In this document: piece after piece, positions 23,379 to 49,114 of the stretch
Numbering within the stretch: position 1 is the first letter of the stretch
Layout of the letters: the number at the start of each line of letters is the position of its first letter
NCBI GenBank assembly: GCA_022450395.1
Contig: JAKUQE010000001.1
Coordinates: forward strand, 1-50,073
Direction of reading: 5' to 3'
Length of the DNA: 50,073 bases
From: Dehalococcoidia bacterium
Lineage (GTDB): Bacteria > Chloroflexota > Dehalococcoidia > Lucifugimonadales > UBA3495
The notes under the pieces: generated by a model
Told to the model about the DNA's origin: nothing
What the model saw: only the letters and a program-made list of their open reading frames with translations
The model's database searches: none
Program-made: the position numbers and the translations under genes

Positions 23379-24557
23379 TTAGGGCCAGAGTTGTTCGCTG
23401 GCGATCCGGGCTCCTTCCGCCATCGATCTCATTTTGGCCCAGGCGATTTCCGGGTAGACCCGGTTTCCGTAACCGCAGTCCGTGCCCGCTATGACGTTCT
23501 CCCGCCCCATGATCCTGGCATAGGTCAGGATGCGGTCGGCCACCAACTCCGGCGGCTCTATCGTTGTTGTTTTATGGGCGACGACACCGGGGATGAATAT
23601 CTTGCCGTCGGGCAATTTCACATCCTCCCAAAGCTTCCAGTCCAACTGATGGCGAACGTCCGCGGCTTCTATCGAATACGCCCCGGCATTCACCTTGAGA
23701 AACAGGTCAATGACATTCTTAAGGGGAAGGTCGGTTGTATGGGGAGAATGCTGGCTTCCCCAGCACATATGGAAGCGAACCTGGTCTTCTGGAACGTTCG
23801 TTAGGGCATAGTTCGTGGCCTCAACGCGCATCTCAACATGTTTCCGGTAACCTTCTATGCTCAAGGGAGGGTTGGGAAAGCCATATCTGGTCACCATCGA
23901 AGGATCATCTATCTGGAGGACGAATCCGGCCTCAACTACTGCTTCATACTCACCCTTGAAAAAGTCAGCCAGTGCGTGGAAAAACTCCTCCTCCGTCTGG
24001 TAATACTCGTTCCACAGGAAGTGGGACAACCAGCCGGGACTGAGTACTGGGAAGAAAAAATCTTCTAAATCGGCACCGGCAGCAGAGATGCCTGCCTTCA
24101 CAACTTCGATCTCGTGCTTGATAGTTCCTTGTCCCAGATACTCCAAGGGGCCGGTAACCGCTTCGCGCTGCGTGGCAGGTTGGAAGGTAACTCCGGGCAT
24201 CGGGGTGTTGCCAATGGCATCGTAAACCGCGAAGAATTCCCTGAATTCGGGCATACACCTTTCCGGCTGGTTGGTGAGTATCCACGCCGGCTTGTCGACG
24301 GTTACCGGAATCAATTCAACTCCAGTCGTGCGGCCATCGTAGTACCGTTGGTCGCGAGTCTTCCAGAACTCACCGTCGCTGTGGATGTCATTTTTCAGCT
24401 CTACTTGCTTGCTCACCATCTCCGTCACGCCGAATCTCACCAACTCATCATGCTTCCCTTGGTCACCGGTTCGGGCTGCGATGATTTCTTCCATGTTGCT
24501 GGGATTGGGCAGTCTGCCCGCGTGGGTCGTAAGGATTCTATCGGTACTGCGCTTCAT
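23379..24557 (-). CDS. MetE C-terminal-domain-like protein (COG0620-type), paralog 1
   Basis: MKRSTDRILTTHAGRLPNP; zinc-ligand-like FHMCWG, YSIEAADVRHQ, AGTDCGYGNR. Confidence 0.88.
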   Translation of the reverse strand: MKRSTDRILTTHAGRLPNPSNMEEIIAARTGDQGKHDELVRFGVTEMVSKQVELKNDIHSDGEFWKTRDQRYYDGRTTGVELIPVTVDKPAWILTNQPERCMPEFREFFAVYDAIGNTPMPGVTFQPATQREAVTGPLEYLGQGTIKHEIEVVKAGISAAGADLEDFFFPVLSPGWLSHFLWNEYYQTEEEFFHALADFFKGEYEAVVEAGFVLQIDDPSMVTRYGFPNPPLSIEGYRKHVEMRVEATNYALTNVPEDQVRFHMCWGSQHSPHTTDLPLKNVIDLFLKVNAGAYSIEAADVRHQLDWKLWEDVKLPDGKIFIPGVVAHKTTTIEPPELVADRILTYARIMGRENVIAGTDCGYGNRVYPEIAWAKMRSMAEGARIASEQLWP

Positions 24558-24623
24558 GTTCCTGACTCCTTGATCCTCTGGCCGGCCTGATGGCCTGGAT
24601 GCGAAAAAGGGAATTGATTCGCC

Positions 24624-25807
24624 TTAACCCCACAACTGTTTCGAGGCAATCTGGGCGCCTTCCGCCATCGACCTCATTTTGGCCCAAGCTATATCCGGGT
24701 AGACCCGGTTTCCGTAACCGCAGTCCGTGCCCGCTATGATGTTCTCCCGCCCCATGATCCTGGCATAGGTCATAATCCGGTCGGCCACCAACTCCGGCGG
24801 TTCTATCGTTGTTGTCTTATGGGCGATGACACCGGGGATGAATATCTTGCCATCGGGCAGTTTCACATCCTCCCAAAGCTTCCAGTCCAATTGATGGCGC
24901 ACGTCCGCCGCTTCGATGGAATAGGCTTGGGCATTGACCTTTAGTAATAGATCTATGACATGCTGGAGTGGGATGTCGGTGGTATGAGGCGTGTGCCAGC
25001 TTCCCCAACAAGTGTGATAGCGGACCTTGTCTTCCGGGATATTGCTGAGGGCGTAATTCGTCGCTTCGATCCGCAATTGGGCGTGCTTCCGGAACTCTTC
25101 CACGCTGATGGGCGGGTCGAACAGGCCGAACTTGTCACACAGTCCCGGATCGTCGATCTGAAGAATGAATCCGGCGTCAACCACCGCCTCATAATCTCCC
25201 TTGAAGAAATCCGCCATGGCATAGACATACTCTTCTTCCGTTGTGTAGAACTCATTCCACAAAAAGTGCCCCAGCCAGCCCGGTCCTAAGATTGGGAAAA
25301 AGCAATCATCTACATCAGCCCCGGCAGCCGCTATCCCAGCTTTGACCACTTCGATCTCGTGCTTGATCGCCCCTTGTCCCCGGTATTCCATGGCGCCGGT
25401 GATAACTCCCCGCTCCGTTTGGGGTGGGACGGTGACGCCCGGCATTGTGGAATGTTTCCGTTGGCGTTGTACACCTCGTAGAACTCCCGAAACTCGGGCA
25501 TGCGCCGTTCCTGCTGAAAAGAAACGATTGATGGGGGCTGACCGGCGGTCACCGGCTTCATCTCGATGCCCGTCGAACGGCTGTTGTAGTAGATCCGGTC
25601 GCGGGCCTTCCAAAACTCGCCGTCGCTGTGAAGGTCGTTTTTCAGGTCGATCTGCTTTCGCACCAATTCGGTGATGCCAGCCGTCACTAATGCGTCGAAC
25701 TTTTCTTGGTCTCCGCCGGCGCGAGCTTCCATGATTTCGGCGATGTTGGCAGGATTGGGCAGCCTACCCGCATGGGTTGTAAGGATTCTATCGGTACTGC
25801 GCTTCAT
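24624..25807 (-). CDS. MetE C-terminal-domain-like protein, paralog 2, split by an apparent frameshift near 25440-25450
   Basis: N-terminal half in ORF 25331..25807 (MKRSTDRILTTHAGRLPNPANIAEIM...VYNANGNIP) and C-terminal half in ORF 24624..25613 (MPGVTVPPQTERGV...GTDCGYGNR); collinear with paralog 1. Confidence 0.82.
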
Positions 25808-25867
25808 GCTGCTGACTCCTTAATCCTCGCGGGCCGGTTCGATGACGTGAACGGGTGCTGTGTAGTA

Positions 25868-27031
25868 TTAACCCCATAGCTGTTTCGTGGCGATCTGGGC
25901 TCCTTCGGCCAAGGCATGAAACTTGGCCCAGCAGATCTTGGGGTGGCCCACCCTGGTTCCCAGTCCGCAGTCCGTCCCGGCGATGACATTTTCGCGCCCC
26001 ACCAGCCCGGCGTATTTCACGATGCGCTCAGCTACCAGCTCCGGATGTTCGATAAAATCGGTGGCGTGGCCCACCACGCCTGGTATAAGCACCGTCCCTT
26101 CAGGCAGTTTAACATCCTCGAATACCCGCCATTCGTGCTCGTGCCTCGGGTTTGAAGCTTCGATGGAGTACCCCCCGACCTGAACCTTCAATATCAGGTC
26201 TACGATGTCCCGCAGGGGGATGTCGTACAGGTGAGGACCGTGGTAGCTACCCCAGCACACGTGGAGGCGCATCCGGCCGGCCGGCAACCCACGGAGGGCA
26301 TGGTTGAGGGCGTCCACCCTTAGCTCCGCGTACTTGCGGTATTCGGCGACATTCAGGTTGTTGTGGATCTGCCAGCCGTCTCCCAGGTCCGGATCGTCGA
26401 TCTGCAGCAAGAAGCCGGAATCGACGATCGCCTTGTACTCTTCATGCATGACATCGGCGATGGCGAAGAGGAACGACTCGTCGTCGGGATAGTGTTCGTT
26501 CTGCAGCCAATGCTCGATGGTTCCCGGCGCGATGGCCGGTAAGAAGCTCTCTTCCACGGCGACCCCTTGGAGGGCCGGTTTGAAATTTCCTATGTCCGAC
26601 TGCACCGACGCTTGGCCGGTGTAGGACAGGGGGCTGATGCAGGAAACCAACATCCGCGCCAAGCCCGTGGGTCGCTGGCGTCCTCCGGGAAAACCGGTGG
26701 TCTCGTCGAAGTACCCGGGAAACTCCGAAACGTCGCGTCCGGCTATTCGCGACGCGTAGGCCCGGGAAGGCCGCGTCTCCAGCCCACCCATGCGTTCTTG
26801 TACATAGTCGGAGAAGCCCGTTTTACTCAGCTCTCCGTCGTTGACGATGTCGATCCCGGAGTCAACTTGCTGCTTTACGATGTCCGCGACGCCGCTCTGC
26901 AGCCGCCTAGCCAGGTCCACCTCGTCGTAGGGCTGTCCGGCGCTTTTCGCGCCGACGATCTCCCTGAGGCCCTCGGGCCGGGGCAAGCTGCCGGCATGAG
27001 TGGTGAGAATCCGGTCCGTGCTACGTTTCAT
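25868..27031 (-). CDS. MetE C-terminal-domain-like protein, paralog 3
   Basis: MKRSTDRILTTHAGSLPRPEGL; LHVCWGSYHGPH; YSIEASNPRHEHEW; AGTDCGLG. Confidence 0.88.
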   Translation of the reverse strand: MKRSTDRILTTHAGSLPRPEGLREIVGAKSAGQPYDEVDLARRLQSGVADIVKQQVDSGIDIVNDGELSKTGFSDYVQERMGGLETRPSRAYASRIAGRDVSEFPGYFDETTGFPGGRQRPTGLARMLVSCISPLSYTGQASVQSDIGNFKPALQGVAVEESFLPAIAPGTIEHWLQNEHYPDDESFLFAIADVMHEEYKAIVDSGFLLQIDDPDLGDGWQIHNNLNVAEYRKYAELRVDALNHALRGLPAGRMRLHVCWGSYHGPHLYDIPLRDIVDLILKVQVGGYSIEASNPRHEHEWRVFEDVKLPEGTVLIPGVVGHATDFIEHPELVAERIVKYAGLVGRENVIAGTDCGLGTRVGHPKICWAKFHALAEGAQIATKQLWG

Positions 27032-27078
27032 GCACCTTTCTCCCTGATGTTAGACGTGTGCTTGAGTTCTATCTGTGA

Positions 27079-28218
27079 CTAACCCCATAGTTGTTCGGTG
27101 GCCAATCGAGCGCCTTCGGCCATGGCGCGGAATTTTGCCCAGACAATCTCAGGCTCCACCTGATAGTTGGTCCGGGCGAAGGTGCCGAACCCGCAGTCGG
27201 ACCCGGCGATGACGTTCTCTTTACCCACCAATTCGGCGTAGCGGACGATGCGTTGGGCTACCAGTTTGGGATGCTCGATGTAGTTGGTGGTGGAGTCCAG
27301 CACACCGGGGATGATGATCTTGCCGTCGGGAAGCTTGACGTTCTTGAACACCTCCCATTCGTGCTCGTGGCGCGGATTTGCCCCTTCGAAAGAGAAAGCT
27401 TGAGGACGGGCTTTAAGTACGGCGCCGAGGATTTCCTCAATGGGGATGTCCCGATGGTGGGGTCCTTCGTAGTTGCCCCAACACAGGTGCATCCTGACTG
27501 CTTCAGGCGGTATGTCCGACAACGCATGATTAAGAACCTCAATGTTGGCCTCGGCGATCTTCACGAAATCCTGGTTGCTGATCTCCGGAAACATCAAGTG
27601 GCGGGCCATCGCCAAGTCCGGGCAGTCCACCTGAAGCAGAAAGCCAGCTTGGTGGATAGCGTTATACTCTTCTTTCATCACGTCGGCCAACCGCGCCAGG
27701 TAGGCTTCCCGGGTCGGGAAGTACCGATTCAGCAAGAAATGGGCTATGACCCCGGGCGACGCCGCGGTCATGAATGCTTCCGCTGGGGGAGATGCCGACA
27801 CGGCAGCTTTGAAATTGGCGATGTCTCTTTGCACCGCCTCCCGGTCTTTCCAGTCGATGGGACCGTCACAGGCGGGACGGGACACCGTAGACGGACGTGG
27901 TAGACGGGCGATGGCCTCTGGAAAGTCGGCCCAATCCGACCGGGCGGTTGCCGAGCCTTCGCCCTCAAACCCGGTCAGCCGGTGCCTGACGTAGGTTGAG
28001 TATCCTACTTTGCCCTGTTCGCCGTCGCTGACCACGTCCACCCCGGAGTCAACCTGTATCTTGACCACCTTGGAAACCGATTCCCGGACGAGGCTTTCAA
28101 ACTTCCCTTGGTCGGGCAACTCACCCTTGTCGAATTCCTCCAGCATGGCCGACAGGTCCATCGGCCGGGGCAGACTGCCGGTATGAGTGGTGAGAATGCG
28201 ATCGATGCTGCGTTTCAT
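27079..28218 (-). CDS. MetE C-terminal-domain-like protein, paralog 4
   Basis: Start at MKRSIDRILTTHTGSLPRPMDL; MHLCWGNYEGPHH; FSFEGANPRHEHEW; AGSDCGFG. Confidence 0.88.
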   Translation of the reverse strand: MKRSIDRILTTHTGSLPRPMDLSAMLEEFDKGELPDQGKFESLVRESVSKVVKIQVDSGVDVVSDGEQGKVGYSTYVRHRLTGFEGEGSATARSDWADFPEAIARLPRPSTVSRPACDGPIDWKDREAVQRDIANFKAAVSASPPAEAFMTAASPGVIAHFLLNRYFPTREAYLARLADVMKEEYNAIHQAGFLLQVDCPDLAMARHLMFPEISNQDFVKIAEANIEVLNHALSDIPPEAVRMHLCWGNYEGPHHRDIPIEEILGAVLKARPQAFSFEGANPRHEHEWEVFKNVKLPDGKIIIPGVLDSTTNYIEHPKLVAQRIVRYAELVGKENVIAGSDCGFGTFARTNYQVEPEIVWAKFRAMAEGARLATEQLWG

Positions 28219-28394
28219 AGTCGTACTCCAAGGAGAAGGCTTCGCCGTCTGATCCAGTTGAGCGCAGATTGTACCACGGCTGGTTTTCCGGGTCTCTGGA
28301 TGGTCGCCGTTGACACTATCAAGCGCCAAAAACTAACATTGACCATCGTGAGCCCGCGAGGCTTAGACCCACCTATAAACCAGGAGGACTCGCC

Positions 28395-34798: not shown

Positions 34799-35272
34799 TC
34801 ACTGGCGTCTCCGCCGGTTCCGCCTGCTCATTGTACGGTGCCGGGTCGTCGTTCTGTCCCGAAAGTGGGTGATCACCGGGAGGATGACCTCGGCATAGAG
34901 ATGGGTCTTGCCCCTGATGTGGTAACCCAGCCATTGGGTATATGCCTGGATGCCGGTGGCCTTGGGCTGCCATTCCACCGTCCACAACGTGGTGTCGTCC
35001 GCCGATTCGAATAGATCGATACGGTCAGCCCATTTGGACTCTTGAGCCCTCATGACGCGCCGGCGCGGATGTTCGTACTCGCAACGCCAGGTGGGGTCAT
35101 CCTCGCTGGCGCCCTTGAAGATGTAGATTTCCCCTTCTTGTTCAACCAGTTCGCCGTGTTTCTCTTCTAGAGATTTCAGGTTAGCCGACCCGCCGTCGGT
35201 GTAGCCGGTGACATGTTCGTATACCTGTTCAAGGGGTCCGGTAACGGTGATCTGGAATTTGTATGTAGGCAT
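34799..35272 (-). CDS. SRPBCC-like protein
   Basis: MPTYKFQITVTGPLEQVYEHVTGYTDGG...RIDLFESADDTTLWTVEWQPKATGIQAYTQWLGYHIRGKTHLYAEVILPV. Confidence 0.6.
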   Translation of the reverse strand: MPTYKFQITVTGPLEQVYEHVTGYTDGGSANLKSLEEKHGELVEQEGEIYIFKGASEDDPTWRCEYEHPRRRVMRAQESKWADRIDLFESADDTTLWTVEWQPKATGIQAYTQWLGYHIRGKTHLYAEVILPVITHFRDRTTTRHRTMSRRNRRRRQ

Positions 35273-35295: not shown

Positions 35296-35460
35296 AACGC
35301 TGCGTTTGGCCCATTTTACGCCAGTATGCGCCAGATACAATCCCCATTCCGAATCTTCCGATTCCCCGCCCAGTATGCCGCGTGGTAGAATCCGGGCGTA
35401 ACTCGGACAGGAGGTCCGGAGGCATGGAGCAGCAACTTGGATTCGCCACCGCCCCGGACG
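35296..35460 (+). repeat. Copy A of duplicated promoter plus 5' coding module of the alpha/beta hydrolase gene
   Basis: GGCCCATTTTACGCCAG..GCGCCAGATACAATCCCC..TTCC....GTGGTAGAATCC.GGCGTAA.TC.GACAG.AGGTCCGG..GCATGG.GCAGCAACT; repeated at 37337-37510. Confidence 0.85.
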
Positions 35461-37211
35461 GGGTCAGTATCTGCTATGCCACGGTGGGTGAAGGGCCGCC
35501 GCTGGTTAAAGCGCCCAACTGGCTCAGCCACCTGGAGTACGACTGGCGCAGCCCGGTCTGGCGGCACTGGTGGGAAGAATTGGCCCGGAACCACCGCCTC
35601 ATCAGGTTCGATCAACGGGGCATCGGATTATCGGATTGGAACGTGGAAGATATGTCCTTCGACGCTCGAGTCAGCGACTTGGAGACCGTGGTCGACGCCC
35701 TGGGCCTGGAAACGTTTGCTCTCTTGGGTATTTCTCAAGGCGGATCGGCCGCGGCCGAATACTCGGTGAGGCATCCTGAAAGAGTTAATAAGCTGATAAT
35801 CTACGGAAGTTTTGCCGTTGGGAGTTCTAGGCGCAACGAGACACCGGAGCAAACCGCAGAGAGGGAAGCTCTTATCACGCTGATGAGGGTTGGTTGGGGA
35901 AGGGAAAATCCCGCTTACCGGCAGGTTTTCGCCACCAATTTTATGCCGGATGCAACTGCCGAGGACATGGACTCGTTCAACGAGTTGCAGCGAGCGTCTG
36001 CTTCTCCGGAAAACGCGGTTAGGACAACTCGTGAGACGGCGCAGATCGACCTGAGGAACCGGATGCCCCAGATAACTGTTCCGACTCTGGTATTGCATGC
36101 TCGGGAAGACGGCCAGGTCCCCTTCGAGTTGGGACGTCAAGTGGCCGCTCTGATACCCGGAGCGCGGTTCGTCCCATTAGCCAGCAAAAACCATATTTTG
36201 CGGGAAGATGAGCCTGCATGGCCAGTTTTTCTATCCGAAGTTCGGGGTTTTCTCGGCGTCGGCGAGTCTGACGCCCAGTCTGCTGTTGCCCCCGGCCCGT
36301 CACAGCTCGCCAGCGTTTCGGTATCAACCGAGACCGGTGACGAGGCAGAAGCTCATACTCTAATCTCGGGAATGGACGAGGTGTCTCTGAGACGCTTCAG
36401 CGTGGTTCCCGGCTACTCAAAATTCGACGAGGTTACCCGCAACGTGTTGAAGGATGCCCGTCAGAAAATCGCCGAGGGCATAGGCCAACCCACGGGCAAG
36501 CGGGAAAACCACCTTTTTTGGGCGGCGCCGGGCAGCGGGAAGACCTATTTCGCGGTTCAGACCGTCGCCTCACTCCCCGGTAACGTTCGCTACCACGAGT
36601 TGAACCTGGCCAAGCTGACCGAGCCGGAATTCCTCGCCGGACTTCGTGAGATGGATGATTTCACCGACCCGTGCCTCTGCTTGATCGATGAAGTCGACGC
36701 CAAGCCCGAAGAGGTGTGGCCCTACGAAGTCTTGCTTCCGTATCTGGACGCCGCTTTGGAGCGAAAGGCCCGGTTCGTTTTCGTCATGGCGGGGAGCTCG
36801 GGCTCCAGCGTCAGCGAGATGAAACAGAGGATCGCCTCCCGGCCCAAGGGGACCGACATGCTGAGCCGCATCCCCGATGGCAACGAGTACCAGATCCCCG
36901 CCATGGGGGTGGGCGATCGGGTCCTGGTGGCGCTCAGCCAGTTCCTGCAGGCAGGGAAAGAGGCCGGCAAGGAAGTGCAGTCTGTGGAGAAGCTGGGGCT
37001 CTACTTCGTGGCCACCACACCCCGCCTGGCCAACGCCCGCCAACTGCGGGAGTTCGCGGTACGTGCGGTGGAACGCATGCCTCTTGGAGAAGACCGGATC
37101 AAGTACGATCACCTGTTCGGGGCCGGAGACCCAGAGAACAAGACCTTTTGGGCTCAATCTTCGCCGGTGGCCGGGGACCTGGCAAACCGCTATGTGGCGG
37201 TGCGGGAGTAG
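35424..37211 (+). CDS. Fusion protein: N-terminal alpha/beta hydrolase and C-terminal AAA+ ATPase
   Basis: MEQQLGFATAPDGVSICYATVGEGPPLVKAPNWLSHLEYDW; GISQGG nucleophile elbow; Walker A WAAPGSGKTYF; Walker B CLCLIDEVDAK; FVFVMAGSSGSS. Confidence 0.85.
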   Translation: MEQQLGFATAPDGVSICYATVGEGPPLVKAPNWLSHLEYDWRSPVWRHWWEELARNHRLIRFDQRGIGLSDWNVEDMSFDARVSDLETVVDALGLETFALLGISQGGSAAAEYSVRHPERVNKLIIYGSFAVGSSRRNETPEQTAEREALITLMRVGWGRENPAYRQVFATNFMPDATAEDMDSFNELQRASASPENAVRTTRETAQIDLRNRMPQITVPTLVLHAREDGQVPFELGRQVAALIPGARFVPLASKNHILREDEPAWPVFLSEVRGFLGVGESDAQSAVAPGPSQLASVSVSTETGDEAEAHTLISGMDEVSLRRFSVVPGYSKFDEVTRNVLKDARQKIAEGIGQPTGKRENHLFWAAPGSGKTYFAVQTVASLPGNVRYHELNLAKLTEPEFLAGLREMDDFTDPCLCLIDEVDAKPEEVWPYEVLLPYLDAALERKARFVFVMAGSSGSSVSEMKQRIASRPKGTDMLSRIPDGNEYQIPAMGVGDRVLVALSQFLQAGKEAGKEVQSVEKLGLYFVATTPRLANARQLREFAVRAVERMPLGEDRIKYDHLFGAGDPENKTFWAQSSPVAGDLANRYVAVRE

Positions 37212-37225
37212 GCCGGTTCACCAGG

Positions 37226-37335
37226 CTACAGCCCGCCCAACTCCTCCACGGTTCCGTCTACGTAAAGGATACCCAGGGCGGCCAGGGCGGTTTGCCGTAT
37301 CTGAGCAGCCTGGGACCTGTCTCGAAGAGAACCTA
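37226..37335 (-). pseudogene. Duplicated 3'-terminal fragment of the halogenase-like gene at 39161-40804
   Basis: CTACAGCCCGCCCAACTCCTCCAC.GT.CCGTCTACGTA.A.AATACCCAGGGCGGCCAGGGCGGTTTGCCG matches 39161-39270 nearly base for base. Confidence 0.88.
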
Positions 37336-37336
37336 T

Positions 37337-37510
37337 GACGCTGATCTAGGCCCATTTTACGCCAGGACGCGCCAGATACAATCCCCGTTCCTGAATCACC
37401 TTCGTGATTTTCGATTCTCCGTCCTGTCTCCCACGTGGTAGAATCCCGGCGTAATTCAGACAGTAGGTCCGGCTGCATGGCGCAGCAACTCGGGATCACC
37501 CCGCACCGGA
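37337..37510 (+). repeat. Copy B of the duplicated promoter/5' module (encodes MAQQLGI before homology ends)
   Basis: Aligns to 35296-35460 with one ~18-bp insertion; homology to the hydrolase ends around 37510. Confidence 0.85.
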
Positions 37511-37872
37511 TAGCGCCAGCAACTGCTAAGTATAGACCCCGTTATTGGATGCACGGCTGGTCAACACTTGCTAGAGTCCGATCACTTTCGGGAGTCCATT
37601 CCACGCCAGATTCCATGGTCCCACTCGGCCGGTTTGGCCGACAGGTGCAGCAATTCGACCCTGTAGAGGTAGTACTGAAGTGTGCCGCGACTAGCCGGTT
37701 CATGGATAAGGAAAACAAGACTCTGCACCAGGAGCCATTTTCGGACACCCTAGCTGGATTCCGTCGGACGCATTATGCATTGGTAACTCATAGTGGATTG
37801 GCTTCCGTAGTTCGCCTAGCAATCAGAAATTAACCTTGGGCTAGAAGAGAGTCCGCGTCCGCAAAGGACGTA

Positions 37873-39134
37873 ATGGTCCTGGCTAATAATTGGAACAACG
37901 TCGAAGATCCTTTTCTGGGATCTGGGTTGATGACTCTAGTCAGAGTTGCATACGAGCATTTTCCCTACCAAGAGCAGCTAGCTGACCTGATTCCTAGGTA
38001 CCTAATGATTTTAACTAAAACGAATCCAACTGACCCCTTGCTGGACGTACAAGATACCTTCAAGAGCAAGACGGGACTCAGCATCGAAGAGTTCATGAAG
38101 ATTGGGGTCTCGTTTTATTCTGGGGCGCTTCAATACGCTTCATTTGAACGTGGCTTTATCGAAGGTACCGAGGAGGAAAAACTAAAGCCTTTGCTCACCT
38201 CTGAAAAGGTTGACGCTTTTCTTAATGCCGTCGCCGCTGACTTCCCGACGTTTCGACGCCTTTGCTTGCAGGAGGAACAGGAGGCCCCAGGAGCCGGTAA
38301 ATGGGTTTTCAATTCCTTAATAAGTAGGCCAGTCATTATCCTTCCGGACGGGCGCTTCTGTGTTCCCGTTCCCCGGTTGTTGATCCATCGGATTACTAAG
38401 GGCATCTACTATGACTTGCTGGAGGCTTATTCTACTCCTGGTGACAACCCATTTCTTGCTTGGTTCGGTCACGCTTTCGAGGAGTACGGAGGTTTCATAC
38501 TCCAAAAAGCATTGGACCAGACAACAGTCTACCCGGAGCCTGCGTACGGAAGCTCTGTAAGACATGGTCCGGACTGGACGATACTTGGGGAGGACATTGG
38601 CCTTGCCATGGAGTTTCGCTCTTCACGGGAGCCGAAGATCGTTAGGAGTACAACAGAACGGGACGAAGTAATTAACCGAGTGCGCCGAGGATTGGTTGGG
38701 ATTCTCAGGCAATTCCCGGCAAAGATTAGGGCCATTCTCGATGGCTCAGCAGGCTTACCCGCATCCGGGGTAAGTGAGCTTGTGCCCGCCGTTATTACCT
38801 TAGAATCCTGGCACCCTGAAGGGCTCACAACTGACTTAATTAGAAGAGAGTTGCAACAGGAAGGGACGGATCCTGGGCGCTTTCAGCTGATGTCGATAAG
38901 GGACTTAGAGTGGTTACTGACCTGGGCCCAAATCGAGCCTCCGGCTATTGTTCTTCGGGATAAGCTCTCCGACCCTGCCCTGGTGATATGTCTGTCAGCC
39001 AATACCTGCAAAAGCGCGCCGATGACCAGGGTTTATCATTCCCGCGGCGGATACTCAAGGATGTAGCTGATGCATTCTTTGACGAGTTCACAAGTAATGA
39101 CGACCCAGCCGTAGACAAATCAATCTTTGAATAG
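37873..39134 (+). CDS. Uncharacterised protein with a possible PD-(D/E)XK-like nuclease motif; apparent frameshift near 38990 extends the C-terminus
   Basis: ORF 37873..39066. FGHAFEEYGGFILQKAL...YPEPAYGSSVRHGPDWTILGEDIGLAMEFRSSREPKI resembles E...DW...E-x-R/K nuclease-fold cores. An alternative frame from about 38988 encodes MSVSQYLQKRADDQGLSFPRRILKDVADAFFDEFTSNDDPAVDKSIFE*. Confidence 0.5.
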
Positions 39135-39160
39135 ACTTGGATCAGGCCATCCACCTATAT

Positions 39161-40804
39161 CTACAGCCCGCCCAACTCCTCCACTGTCCCGTCTACGTAG
39201 AGAATACCCAGGGCGGCCAGGGCGGTTTGCCGGATCTGGTCGGCCTGGGACTCGTCTCCTAGAGAAATTAATCCGTCCAGCAATTGGTCCACGGTTTTCT
39301 CACCGTCGATCTGAGAAACCAAGGCGGCGATCAGCCCGCTGCATGGTGTGCCCTCGGGCTGGCTGACCGTAGTCAGGACCGTCCCCCAGACGAACTCTCC
39401 AGCGCCCAGCACCGGTTTTCGCTGGGTTAGTGTTCCAGGGGCAAGCCGGGGGATGGCGGTCATTATCGGGTCTCCGGTATCGGTTCCGGAGCGCGCTGCT
39501 TCCCATCTCACCCGCCGCCTTTCCCGCTCCGACTCCACCTGGCGAACGCTGGAGGCGAACTCTAGGGGAGCTTTACCCTGCTCCAGGACCGCCCGTTCGT
39601 AGCCTCGGGGAGGTTGGCCGGCCACTGCCTGAATAAATGCCTGACGGGGCGTAAAGTTTCCGGCGCCTTCCAGCAGGCGGCGTGCCTCCCAAAAATAAGA
39701 GTCCGACGTAAGGTTGCTGGAGTAAAACAACCGGGCCATCTCCCGGAAGTGGCTGTACTCTTTCAGGTATAGCTCATGGTAGGCGGCGGCGGCGGGCTCG
39801 GCTATCTCGGCATCTTTGAGCGCCGAAGTTACATAAGCCGCGGATAGGATGCCGGACATCAATGCCAAGTGGACGCCCGAGGAAAACAAGGGGTCCACGA
39901 AGCAGGCTGCGTCCCCCGCCAGCACGTAGCCGTCCCCGGCCACCCGTTCGCATACGTAGGACCAATCCTTAACGATGAACGGTCCGGACTCCAACTGGGC
40001 TTCCCGAAGCATTCCGGAGGTGTGCGGCGCTTGGGCCACTTGGGCTTGGAGGAATTCGCCTAGACCTCCTTTGCTGATCTCCGACTGGCCGGTGGAGCTA
40101 TCCACCACCGCTCCCACGCTGGTCCAGCCGGTGTGCAGTGGTATGCTCCAAAGCCAGCCGTTGGGATATGCCTCGATGAAGATGTTTGTCTCGTCGGGAG
40201 AAGGCAGGCGCTGCGCTCCGGAGAAATAGCCGTATACGGCCAGGTTCTGGAAGAAAGAGTCCCATTGCCGCAGGTTCAGGTCCCTGGCCAGGATGCCCGT
40301 CTGGCCGCTGGCATCCACTACGTACCGGCACCGGACCGTGGCGGTTTCGCCGGTGTCAGATCGGTATCGGACGCCGGTGGCTTTCCCACTCTCCCACAGC
40401 ACCTCCACCACCCGGTGGCCTTCTCGAACGTCCACTCCATGGGCGCGGCTGTTTTCCAGTAGCAGTTGATCGAACTGGGGACGCCAGACCTGATAGGAGT
40501 GAGGATTGCGTTGGTTGGTTTCCTTGAAGTACCAGCTCCAAGGAGCGGGGTCCGTCCCCCACACCATGGTAGCTCCCCACTTTTTCAGAAAACCGGCGGC
40601 TTCCACGGCGGGAAGCACGCCCAACTCTTCAAGCACAGGGATACTGGCCGGCAACAGCGACTCGCCGACGTGCTCCCGGGGAAATCTTTCCCTCTCTAAC
40701 AGAAGCACCCTGACTCCCTGCCGGGCCAACATGGTCGCCGACGTGCTTCCCGCCGGCCCGCCGCCAATGACCACAACTTCACATGAATGCTCAGCTGTGG
40801 TCAT
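39161..40804 (-). CDS. FAD-dependent oxidoreductase, flavin-dependent halogenase-like, with a C-terminal wHTH/PqqD-like extension
   Basis: VVVIGGGPAGSTSATMLARQGVRVLLLERERFPREHVGESLLPAS; GWLWSIPL (GWxWxIP); GDAACFVDPLFSSGVHLA; C-terminal LIAALVSQIDGEKTVDQLLDGL. Confidence 0.85.
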   Translation of the reverse strand: MTTAEHSCEVVVIGGGPAGSTSATMLARQGVRVLLLERERFPREHVGESLLPASIPVLEELGVLPAVEAAGFLKKWGATMVWGTDPAPWSWYFKETNQRNPHSYQVWRPQFDQLLLENSRAHGVDVREGHRVVEVLWESGKATGVRYRSDTGETATVRCRYVVDASGQTGILARDLNLRQWDSFFQNLAVYGYFSGAQRLPSPDETNIFIEAYPNGWLWSIPLHTGWTSVGAVVDSSTGQSEISKGGLGEFLQAQVAQAPHTSGMLREAQLESGPFIVKDWSYVCERVAGDGYVLAGDAACFVDPLFSSGVHLALMSGILSAAYVTSALKDAEIAEPAAAAYHELYLKEYSHFREMARLFYSSNLTSDSYFWEARRLLEGAGNFTPRQAFIQAVAGQPPRGYERAVLEQGKAPLEFASSVRQVESERERRRVRWEAARSGTDTGDPIMTAIPRLAPGTLTQRKPVLGAGEFVWGTVLTTVSQPEGTPCSGLIAALVSQIDGEKTVDQLLDGLISLGDESQADQIRQTALAALGILYVDGTVEELGGL

Positions 40805-47381: not shown

Positions 47382-49114
47382 GTGACGGAAGGCTGGTATA
47401 GGTTGTCGATTCCCAGATTGCGCGCTGTTTCACGCGCCGTTTCACGCGCCGTTTCAATCGTAGGCATTTTAGCTGTTTGTGCCCTGGTGGTATCGGCTTG
47501 TGCGGTGACAGATATCAACGAAGCTCCCACTACTGAGATTCCGTCCAATGCCGCAACTACGCCCCGTTCAACCCCGACACCCCGACCGACCCCGGCCCCA
47601 ACGTCAACACAGGCCCCCAAACCTGGACTTAACCGAGACGACGCTGTGACCATAAAGTTGGGTGAAACAGTGGGATCTAGTTTCTCCATTCTCTACCCGG
47701 ACATTCACTTTTACACAGTGCAGTTAGAAGAGGGAACCACCTATACCTTCGATATTACGGACACGCTGCGTAGATCGAGCGTAAGCATCGCTGACTCCGG
47801 ATCTGAAACCCTGGCAAGGAACACCGATTCGGGCGGCAACCGCGTTTCCAAGATCGTATGGACGCCGCCAAGGAGTGATACCTATTTCGTGACGGTGATC
47901 GGCTCGTACACTAACAGATATACATTGACCATTACGGGGGGGAGACTGCCCGTGCCTCGGCGCCTGCTCAGACCACCACGCCGGACGTCTCCTCCACGGC
48001 ATCGCGGTTGGCGCCTTCAATCACCTTTGTCTCGGTGAGTGCGGGTGGTGGCCACACCTGTGGCCTCACAACCAGCGGCGCCGCCTACTGCTGGGGCGGA
48101 AACACCTACGGCCAGTTGGGCGGCGGCTCTACAAACGACGGCCAGACGACGCCGATAGCTGTCACCGGGGGGCTCATTTTCGAATCGGTGAGCGCTGGCC
48201 GTCAACACTATTGCGGGGTTACGCCCGACGGCGCCGCGTACTGCTGGGGTATCGGAGACGAAGGCCAACTCGGCAACGGCTCGAAGGACAACCAGCTGAA
48301 GCCGGTGGCCGTCTCAGGCGGGCTTACCTTCGCATCGGTGAGCCCGGGTTTTGGTCACACCTGCGGCGTCACCAACAGCGGCGCCGCCTACTGCTGGGGC
48401 GGCAATTGGGGAGGCCAACTTGGCAACGGCTCGAGGGACAGACAGACGACTCCGAGGGCAGTCTCGGGAGGGCTGGCCTTTGCCTCGGTATTCGCGAGCG
48501 GTGGCCACTCCTGCGGAGTCACGACCAGCGGAGCCACCTACTGCTGGGGTGGAAACGCCTACGGACAGATCGGCGATGGTGGCGCCTCAAGGGGTGACAA
48601 CCCGACGACGCCGGTGGCCACATCGGGCGGACTTGCTTTGGCCTCGGTGAACGGGGGTGTCAATCATACCTGCGGTGTCACAACCAGTGGCGGCGCCTAC
48701 TGCTGGGGTTGGGAGTACTCTGGCCGCCTGGGCAATGGCACGGACGATAACACCAGCCAAAGGTCGCCGGTGGCAGTCTCAGGAGGACTCACCTTTGACT
48801 CGGTGAGCCTCGGTGAGTTGCACACCTGTGGCGTCGCGACCAGCGGCGCCGCCTATTGCTGGGGATTGGGCGATGATCGGCTAGGCAGCGACTTGACGGA
48901 CTTCAAGGCGACGCCGGTCCAGGTGACCCCAGTGGCAGTCTCGGGCGGCCTTGCCTTCGCCTCGGTGAGCGCGGGTCTCAGACACACCTGCGGCCTCACA
49001 ACCAGCGGCGCCGCGTACTGCTGGGGCATTGGAGGCCAAGGCCAACTCGGCAACGGTTCTAAGAGTTCCCAGACCACGCCTGTGGCCGTCGCGGCTCCGG
49101 CCAGCGGGCAATAA
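47382..49114 (+). CDS. PPC-domain plus RCC1-repeat lipoprotein, split by a frameshift at a G7 tract (47936-47942)
   Basis: ORF 47382..48038: signal/lipobox LVVSACAVT, PT-rich linker, PPC-like DIHFYTVQLEEGTTYTFDI. ORF 48008..49114: seven HTCGVTTSGAAYCWG..GQLG repeats. The downstream frame upstream of 48008 reads GGETARASAPAQTTTPDVSSTASRLAPS. Confidence 0.8.

Follow-up and report, generated by a model that had tools for sequence, protein, structure and literature searches.

The window, by which we mean the whole 50,073-nt stretch of contig JAKUQE010000001.1 analysed here, contains a slot between an SRPBCC-like gene and a halogenase gene that is occupied by two successive units, with the following features:

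34799..35272, minus strand: SRPBCC-like gene (ORF of 157 aa), left neighbour of the slot
35297..35476, plus strand: module copy 1, intergenic/promoter region with hydrolase codons 1 to about 17 (76.6% identity to 37338–37528)
35424..37211, plus strand: alpha/beta-hydrolase–AAA gene, intact, 595 aa (Pfam Abhydrolase_1, 3e-17; AAA, 6e-5)
37226..37331, minus strand: halogenase 3'-end fragment, copy 1, final ~35 codons and stop (88.7% identity to 39161–39266)
37332..37337, no strand: junction of about 6 bases between the halogenase fragment and module copy 2, with no detectable microhomology
37338..37528, plus strand: module copy 2, the same intergenic region with a decayed, frameshifted hydrolase start (76.6% identity to 35297–35476)
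37529..37590, no strand: 62-base stretch before the GapS1-like pseudogene, matching neither the unit 1 body nor G035:C71 better than shuffled sequence does
37591..39134, plus strand: GapS1-like pseudogene carrying a GGAG ribosome-binding site of its own, with TAA at 37831–37833 and a −1 frameshift at ~38984 (76–78% protein identity to G035:C71)
39161..40804, minus strand: FAD-dependent halogenase-family gene, intact, 547 aa (Trp_halogenase, 1e-42), whose 3' end is the genuine right bookend

The SRPBCC-like label is taken over from the earlier note as an assumption, and profile searches of this gene returned no Pfam or NCBIfam match. Halogenase matches were found in 33 of the 59 genomes searched, the window's own genome included.

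Self-comparison of the window, which the earlier note had proposed as a dot plot, recovered both repeat pairs described there at essentially the same positions. The module pair aligned over 192 columns (E 5e-34), copy 2 carrying 11 inserted bases and lacking one base relative to copy 1, and its homology takes in the first 53 nt of hydrolase coding sequence, beyond the ends first given (35460 and 37510). The halogenase 3'-end pair, both members on the minus strand, gave an E value of 6e-33, with homology beginning approximately at the halogenase stop codon. Both pairs are real and well beyond chance. Edge comparison revealed no significant extension of either pair, nor of the halogenase pair beyond the stop codon. 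The first halogenase fragment and the second promoter copy had been described as abutting with no gap; they do adjoin, with about 6 bases between the fragment end at 37331 and the module start at 37338. The junction has diverged.

The units are thus arranged as module, body 1 and halogenase end followed by module, body 2 and halogenase, so that two head-to-tail copies share both ends and abut at a novel junction; such an order of repeats, with the copies abutting, is characteristic of head-to-tail duplication. The interiors, however, are not homologous as in a tandem duplication: the two bodies are unrelated, as the earlier note had observed, and copy 2 keeps only ~17 hydrolase codons. Since the bodies are unrelated, either one body was replaced or the copies derive from different alleles, and plain duplication alone would not account for the locus. 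An artificial origin, with contigs of two strains joined as an assembly or library chimera in this metagenome-assembled genome, is very unlikely. The genome is a draft (78.6% complete, 359 contigs), but the junction lies outside both shared repeats, the longest exact matches between the copies (18 and 29 nt) are shorter than a de Bruijn join would need at the usual k, and the bin contains no alternative copy of module or halogenase. The position of the junction and the shortness of these matches also make a simple repeat-induced misassembly appear unlikely.

In the unit 1 protein, the motifs GISQGG, a candidate Asp (HAREDGQV), NHIL, APGSGKT and CLCLIDEVD are legible in the sequence. An AlphaFold2 model (mean pLDDT 83) comprised two mostly confident lobes connected by a low-confidence linker (residues 281–303), and the best 50 matches listed in a fold search with this model all fell on the hydrolase half. 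Comparison of the AAA part with the sequences of solved structures gave nothing better than E 0.1 (best E 0.11). Against the G223 homolog, the gene showed differences of 143/92/310 by codon position, a pattern that points to constraint. The score of unit 1 against NF058673 was 75.9, for a cut-off of 800.

The AAA part (~290 aa) was present in 3 other genomes among 250 of the order and at 20 loci in the genome collection. A hydrolase preceded it in the same frame at nine of the 20, and at one of these nine a cyclase domain lay upstream of the hydrolase; other loci had as N-terminal partner a receiver domain, ~73 unassigned residues or a 258-residue N-terminus without a Pfam domain, and the remaining ones encoded long proteins with STAND-type ATPase, TPR or cyclase domains. 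Because the hydrolase–AAA architecture recurs in many distant genomes, the fusion is recurrent and was not built at this locus; the gene is an unusual one, and a bystander to the genome change. As a family, the AAA part (window 36336–37208; L094–L113) was seen with hydrolase, cyclase–hydrolase, receiver and STAND/TPR partners, and its hosts included Chloroflexota, Deltaproteobacteria, Actinobacteria, Gemmatimonadetes and archaeal-labelled MAGs. A paralogous hydrolase in the window's own genome (L025, G000:C257) carries a class III cyclase-like C-terminus in place of the AAA part.

Unit 2 retains the promoter region and ~17 codons of the hydrolase, frameshifted by the 1-base deletion, and module copy 2 is, judged by its sequence, a decayed hydrolase start. 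The DNA at 37591–39104 aligned with L024:1219–2733 (G035:C71), the home of an intact 521-aa gene in a genome of another family of the same order. This alignment includes the GGAG ribosome-binding-site-like motif, and the first ATG of the relative corresponds to ACG in the window. The unit 2 gene is ~1.5 kb long, starting near 37603–37615 and ending at 39134, and is interrupted by the in-frame TAA and by a 1-base deletion at 38984, the only two clear disabling lesions relative to the G035 gene. The window copy is therefore a pseudogene. The earlier note had taken ORF 37873–39134 for the gene of unit 2; ORF calling instead gave 37873–39066, a stretch internal to the pseudogene. Differences between the unit 2 and G035 genes were distributed 94/53/207 by codon position, concentrated at third positions, from which we infer that both lineages were still functional while they diverged and that the window copy died recently.

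The intact G035 relative matched NF047931 GapS1, which we take from its NCBIfam name to be an anti-phage family, at 6e-14 over profile positions 43–273. Its score of 51.7 bits is far below the family cut-off of 320 bits, so that membership of GapS1 is not indicated and "GapS1-like" is the strongest label allowed. At 1e-6, relatives of the unit 2 gene were found in nine of 250 order genomes (its own included), the close ones in the window and G035 only; within its own family the gene had a single relative, of 30% identity, in G223. No GapS1-like gene was found in viral contigs, plasmids yielded only relatives of 21–29% identity, and a phylum-wide sample of 400 genomes added just one, at 26%. 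Searches for a hydrolase-body remnant in 37529–37590 and for a remnant of the AAA end before 39161 gave nothing beyond shuffles.

To place the slot in context, we compared it with related genomes. Module DNA had no second copy in its own genome and was absent from 49 further family genomes. Among the family genomes compared, only G006 and the window have the SRPBCC-like ortholog beside the halogenase, and G006, in which the flanking genes stand in the same order as in the window, is the one informative relative on which the slot survey rests. Its flanks read Gfo/Idh-like, SRPBCC-like, halogenase, luciferase-like, hydrolase, DUF3179-like and pyrophosphatase, all of these labels except the profile-supported halogenase being presumptive in both genomes. 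The G006 slot holds a cyclase-family gene (340 aa), which also stands after the halogenase in G224, G018, G003 and G019; neither the module nor either window cargo was present in the G006 slot, and no remnant of the cyclase-family gene was found in that of the window. In G015, the gene directly after the halogenase (L067, G015:C108, 5217–6203) begins with a cyclase-family start (MTTKHIPTEEEVL) that continues in frame into the interior of what we take, from reading the sequence, to be a MutY-like protein. At this junction the GC content rises from 0.60 to 0.68, and the contig ends 1 kb further on; it is possibly a rearrangement at a short GAAGAAGTCCTGG match, or else a misassembly.

The earlier note had proposed a cargo-exchange hot spot in which the conserved start module and the halogenase end are fixed bookends, with genes swapped between them and driven by the reused promoter/N-terminal module. 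The SRPBCC–halogenase slot does have three different contents (window unit 1, window unit 2 and G006), and the G015 gene joins the usual cyclase-family start to a MutY-like body. However, the third content, unrelated to the others, comes without the module, which is unique to the window genome, and the G015 junction, near a contig end and with its jump in GC, is possibly misassembled. The protein of unit 1 is a complete and recurring one, module copy 2 has its hydrolase start out of frame, and cargo 2 is dead and has its own ribosome-binding site and start region. No further module copy and no third cargo between the bookends were found, and the comparison of family genomes gave no set of strains or species in which these bookends enclose varying cargos. 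The module hot spot is not supported, and we consider it hardly credible. It is also very doubtful that the slot at the halogenase 3' end is a gene-body exchange site, at which incoming genes repeatedly replace the body of a resident gene and leave the promoter and opening codons in place; it would be exemplified by the window, where a GapS1-like body follows the hydrolase start, and perhaps by G015, where a MutY-like body follows a cyclase-family start.

Other repeats were observed in the window. Four tandem genes, methionine-synthase-II-like by our reading of the sequence, lie on the minus strand at 23379–28329; of these, 24624–25613 looks like a frameshifted copy whose N-terminus departs from its neighbours, with 74% DNA identity to the next gene. 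An RCC1-like repeat protein with strong internal repeats is encoded at 48008–49114.

The remaining part of the earlier proposal, tandem duplication of the segment between the SRPBCC–hydrolase intergenic region and the halogenase gene followed by a change of body in copy 2, fits the sequence; duplication plus replacement is supported and probably correct. Our preferred explanation, to which we give a probability of about one half, is a segmental tandem duplication of ~2.04 kb, after which the hydrolase–AAA body of copy 2 was replaced by a foreign GapS1-like gene that has since decayed. The duplication, from 35297 to ~37336, would have covered the promoter region, the hydrolase–AAA gene and the terminal 106 bases of the halogenase gene on the opposite strand. 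Copy 1 would have stayed intact, while in copy 2 the hydrolase–AAA body between about codon 18 and the halogenase stop codon would have been lost, its place being taken by a horizontally acquired GapS1-like gene of anti-phage type with its own ribosome-binding site. This gene would have been functional until recently, its frame now being lost. The duplicated sequence would have no special role beyond marking the site of the event. The frameshifted start kept in module copy 2 belongs to the hydrolase of unit 1, which means that this copy, or else the allele behind it, formerly carried that gene. A foreign origin of cargo 2 is suggested by its lower GC content (0.508 versus 0.584 for the window), together with its close homolog in G035 and its lone distant relative within the family. 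Duplication is favoured by the other tandem duplications in the same contig (23.4–28.3 kb and 48.0–49.1 kb).

We infer that the duplication came first, and in this genome, and that the replacement was a one-step coupled insertion–deletion, as in homology-facilitated illegitimate recombination. This process uses homology at one end and an illegitimate junction at the other, often with 3–10 bp of microhomology. Coupled insertion–deletions of such size are among its products (PMC3240628), and a related model exists for Vibrio arrays (PMC5361080). The absence of remaining microhomology at the junction counts against our preferred explanation, and the lower divergence of the halogenase copies (11%) than of the module copies (23%) counts against duplication in situ.

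These two levels of divergence would be expected if two diverged alleles stood in tandem, a resident module–GapS1–halogenase arrangement and a fragment of a related strain consisting of module, hydrolase–AAA gene and halogenase 3' end, which is possible, if rather unlikely. End joining could have turned the fragment into a circle that then integrated through a single crossover; alternatively, it could have entered by homologous recombination on one side and illegitimate recombination on the other, either way giving the observed order. In E. coli, circularised linear fragments are documented to enter by single crossover, leaving duplications of 109–950 bp (PMC3240628). The halogenase copies also show a synonymous lean, with 8 of 12 differences at third positions, a pattern somewhat more in keeping with two functional alleles of different strain origin. 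The codon test against a neutrally decaying halogenase fragment was, however, not significant (P 0.03–0.18), no strain with either single allele is known, and the module is missing from the 49 other family genomes searched. In-situ duplication is favoured over integration of a fragment from a divergent strain.

Reciprocal loss would yield the same end structure with no replacement step: a larger segment containing both the hydrolase–AAA and GapS1-like genes would have been duplicated, copy 1 then losing GapS1 and copy 2 the hydrolase. This is improbable, as it requires two independent deletions, both ending within a few bases of gene edges; moreover, only 14 bases lie between the AAA stop codon and the halogenase fragment, too few for a GapS1 remnant, and a hydrolase remnant is undetectable in the 62 bases before GapS1.

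The locus looks like an ordinary kind of genome change, comprising duplication, gene replacement and decay. It provides one clear case in which duplication, uptake of a foreign defence-type gene and decay would be combined in an uncultured Chloroflexota lineage, and it means that what looked like a promoter-reuse hot spot no longer counts as a novelty. The recurring AAA output domain, with its hydrolase, receiver, cyclase and STAND partners, may merit more attention than the bookends.

Comparison with known systems revealed partial likeness in each case. Like the LipJ/Rv1900c-type hydrolase–adenylate cyclases, the unit 1 protein combines an N-terminal alpha/beta-hydrolase domain with a signalling output, but this output is an AAA ATPase rather than a class III cyclase C-terminal domain, and its NF058673 score falls below the cut-off. 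The likeness of unit 2 to the GAPS1 anti-phage system (PMC12774648) lies in the profile match of the intact G035 relative, the window copy being a pseudogene. The sequential displacement arrays of type VI secretion effector–immunity modules in Vibrio cholerae, for which homology-facilitated illegitimate recombination has been proposed (PMC5361080), and rhs C-terminal displacement share with the window a constant 5' anchor, a variable body and consecutive remnants of earlier alleles. In contrast to these systems, the window shows one event only, its leftover gene is dead, there is no polymorphic toxin, its constant 5' module has no other copy, and no cargo variation between strains is shown. 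Ordinary tandem gene duplications in which one copy decays have in common with the window a head-to-tail arrangement, here of 2 kb, with one intact copy and one frameshifted remnant, except that the decayed copy in the window would additionally have taken in a foreign gene.
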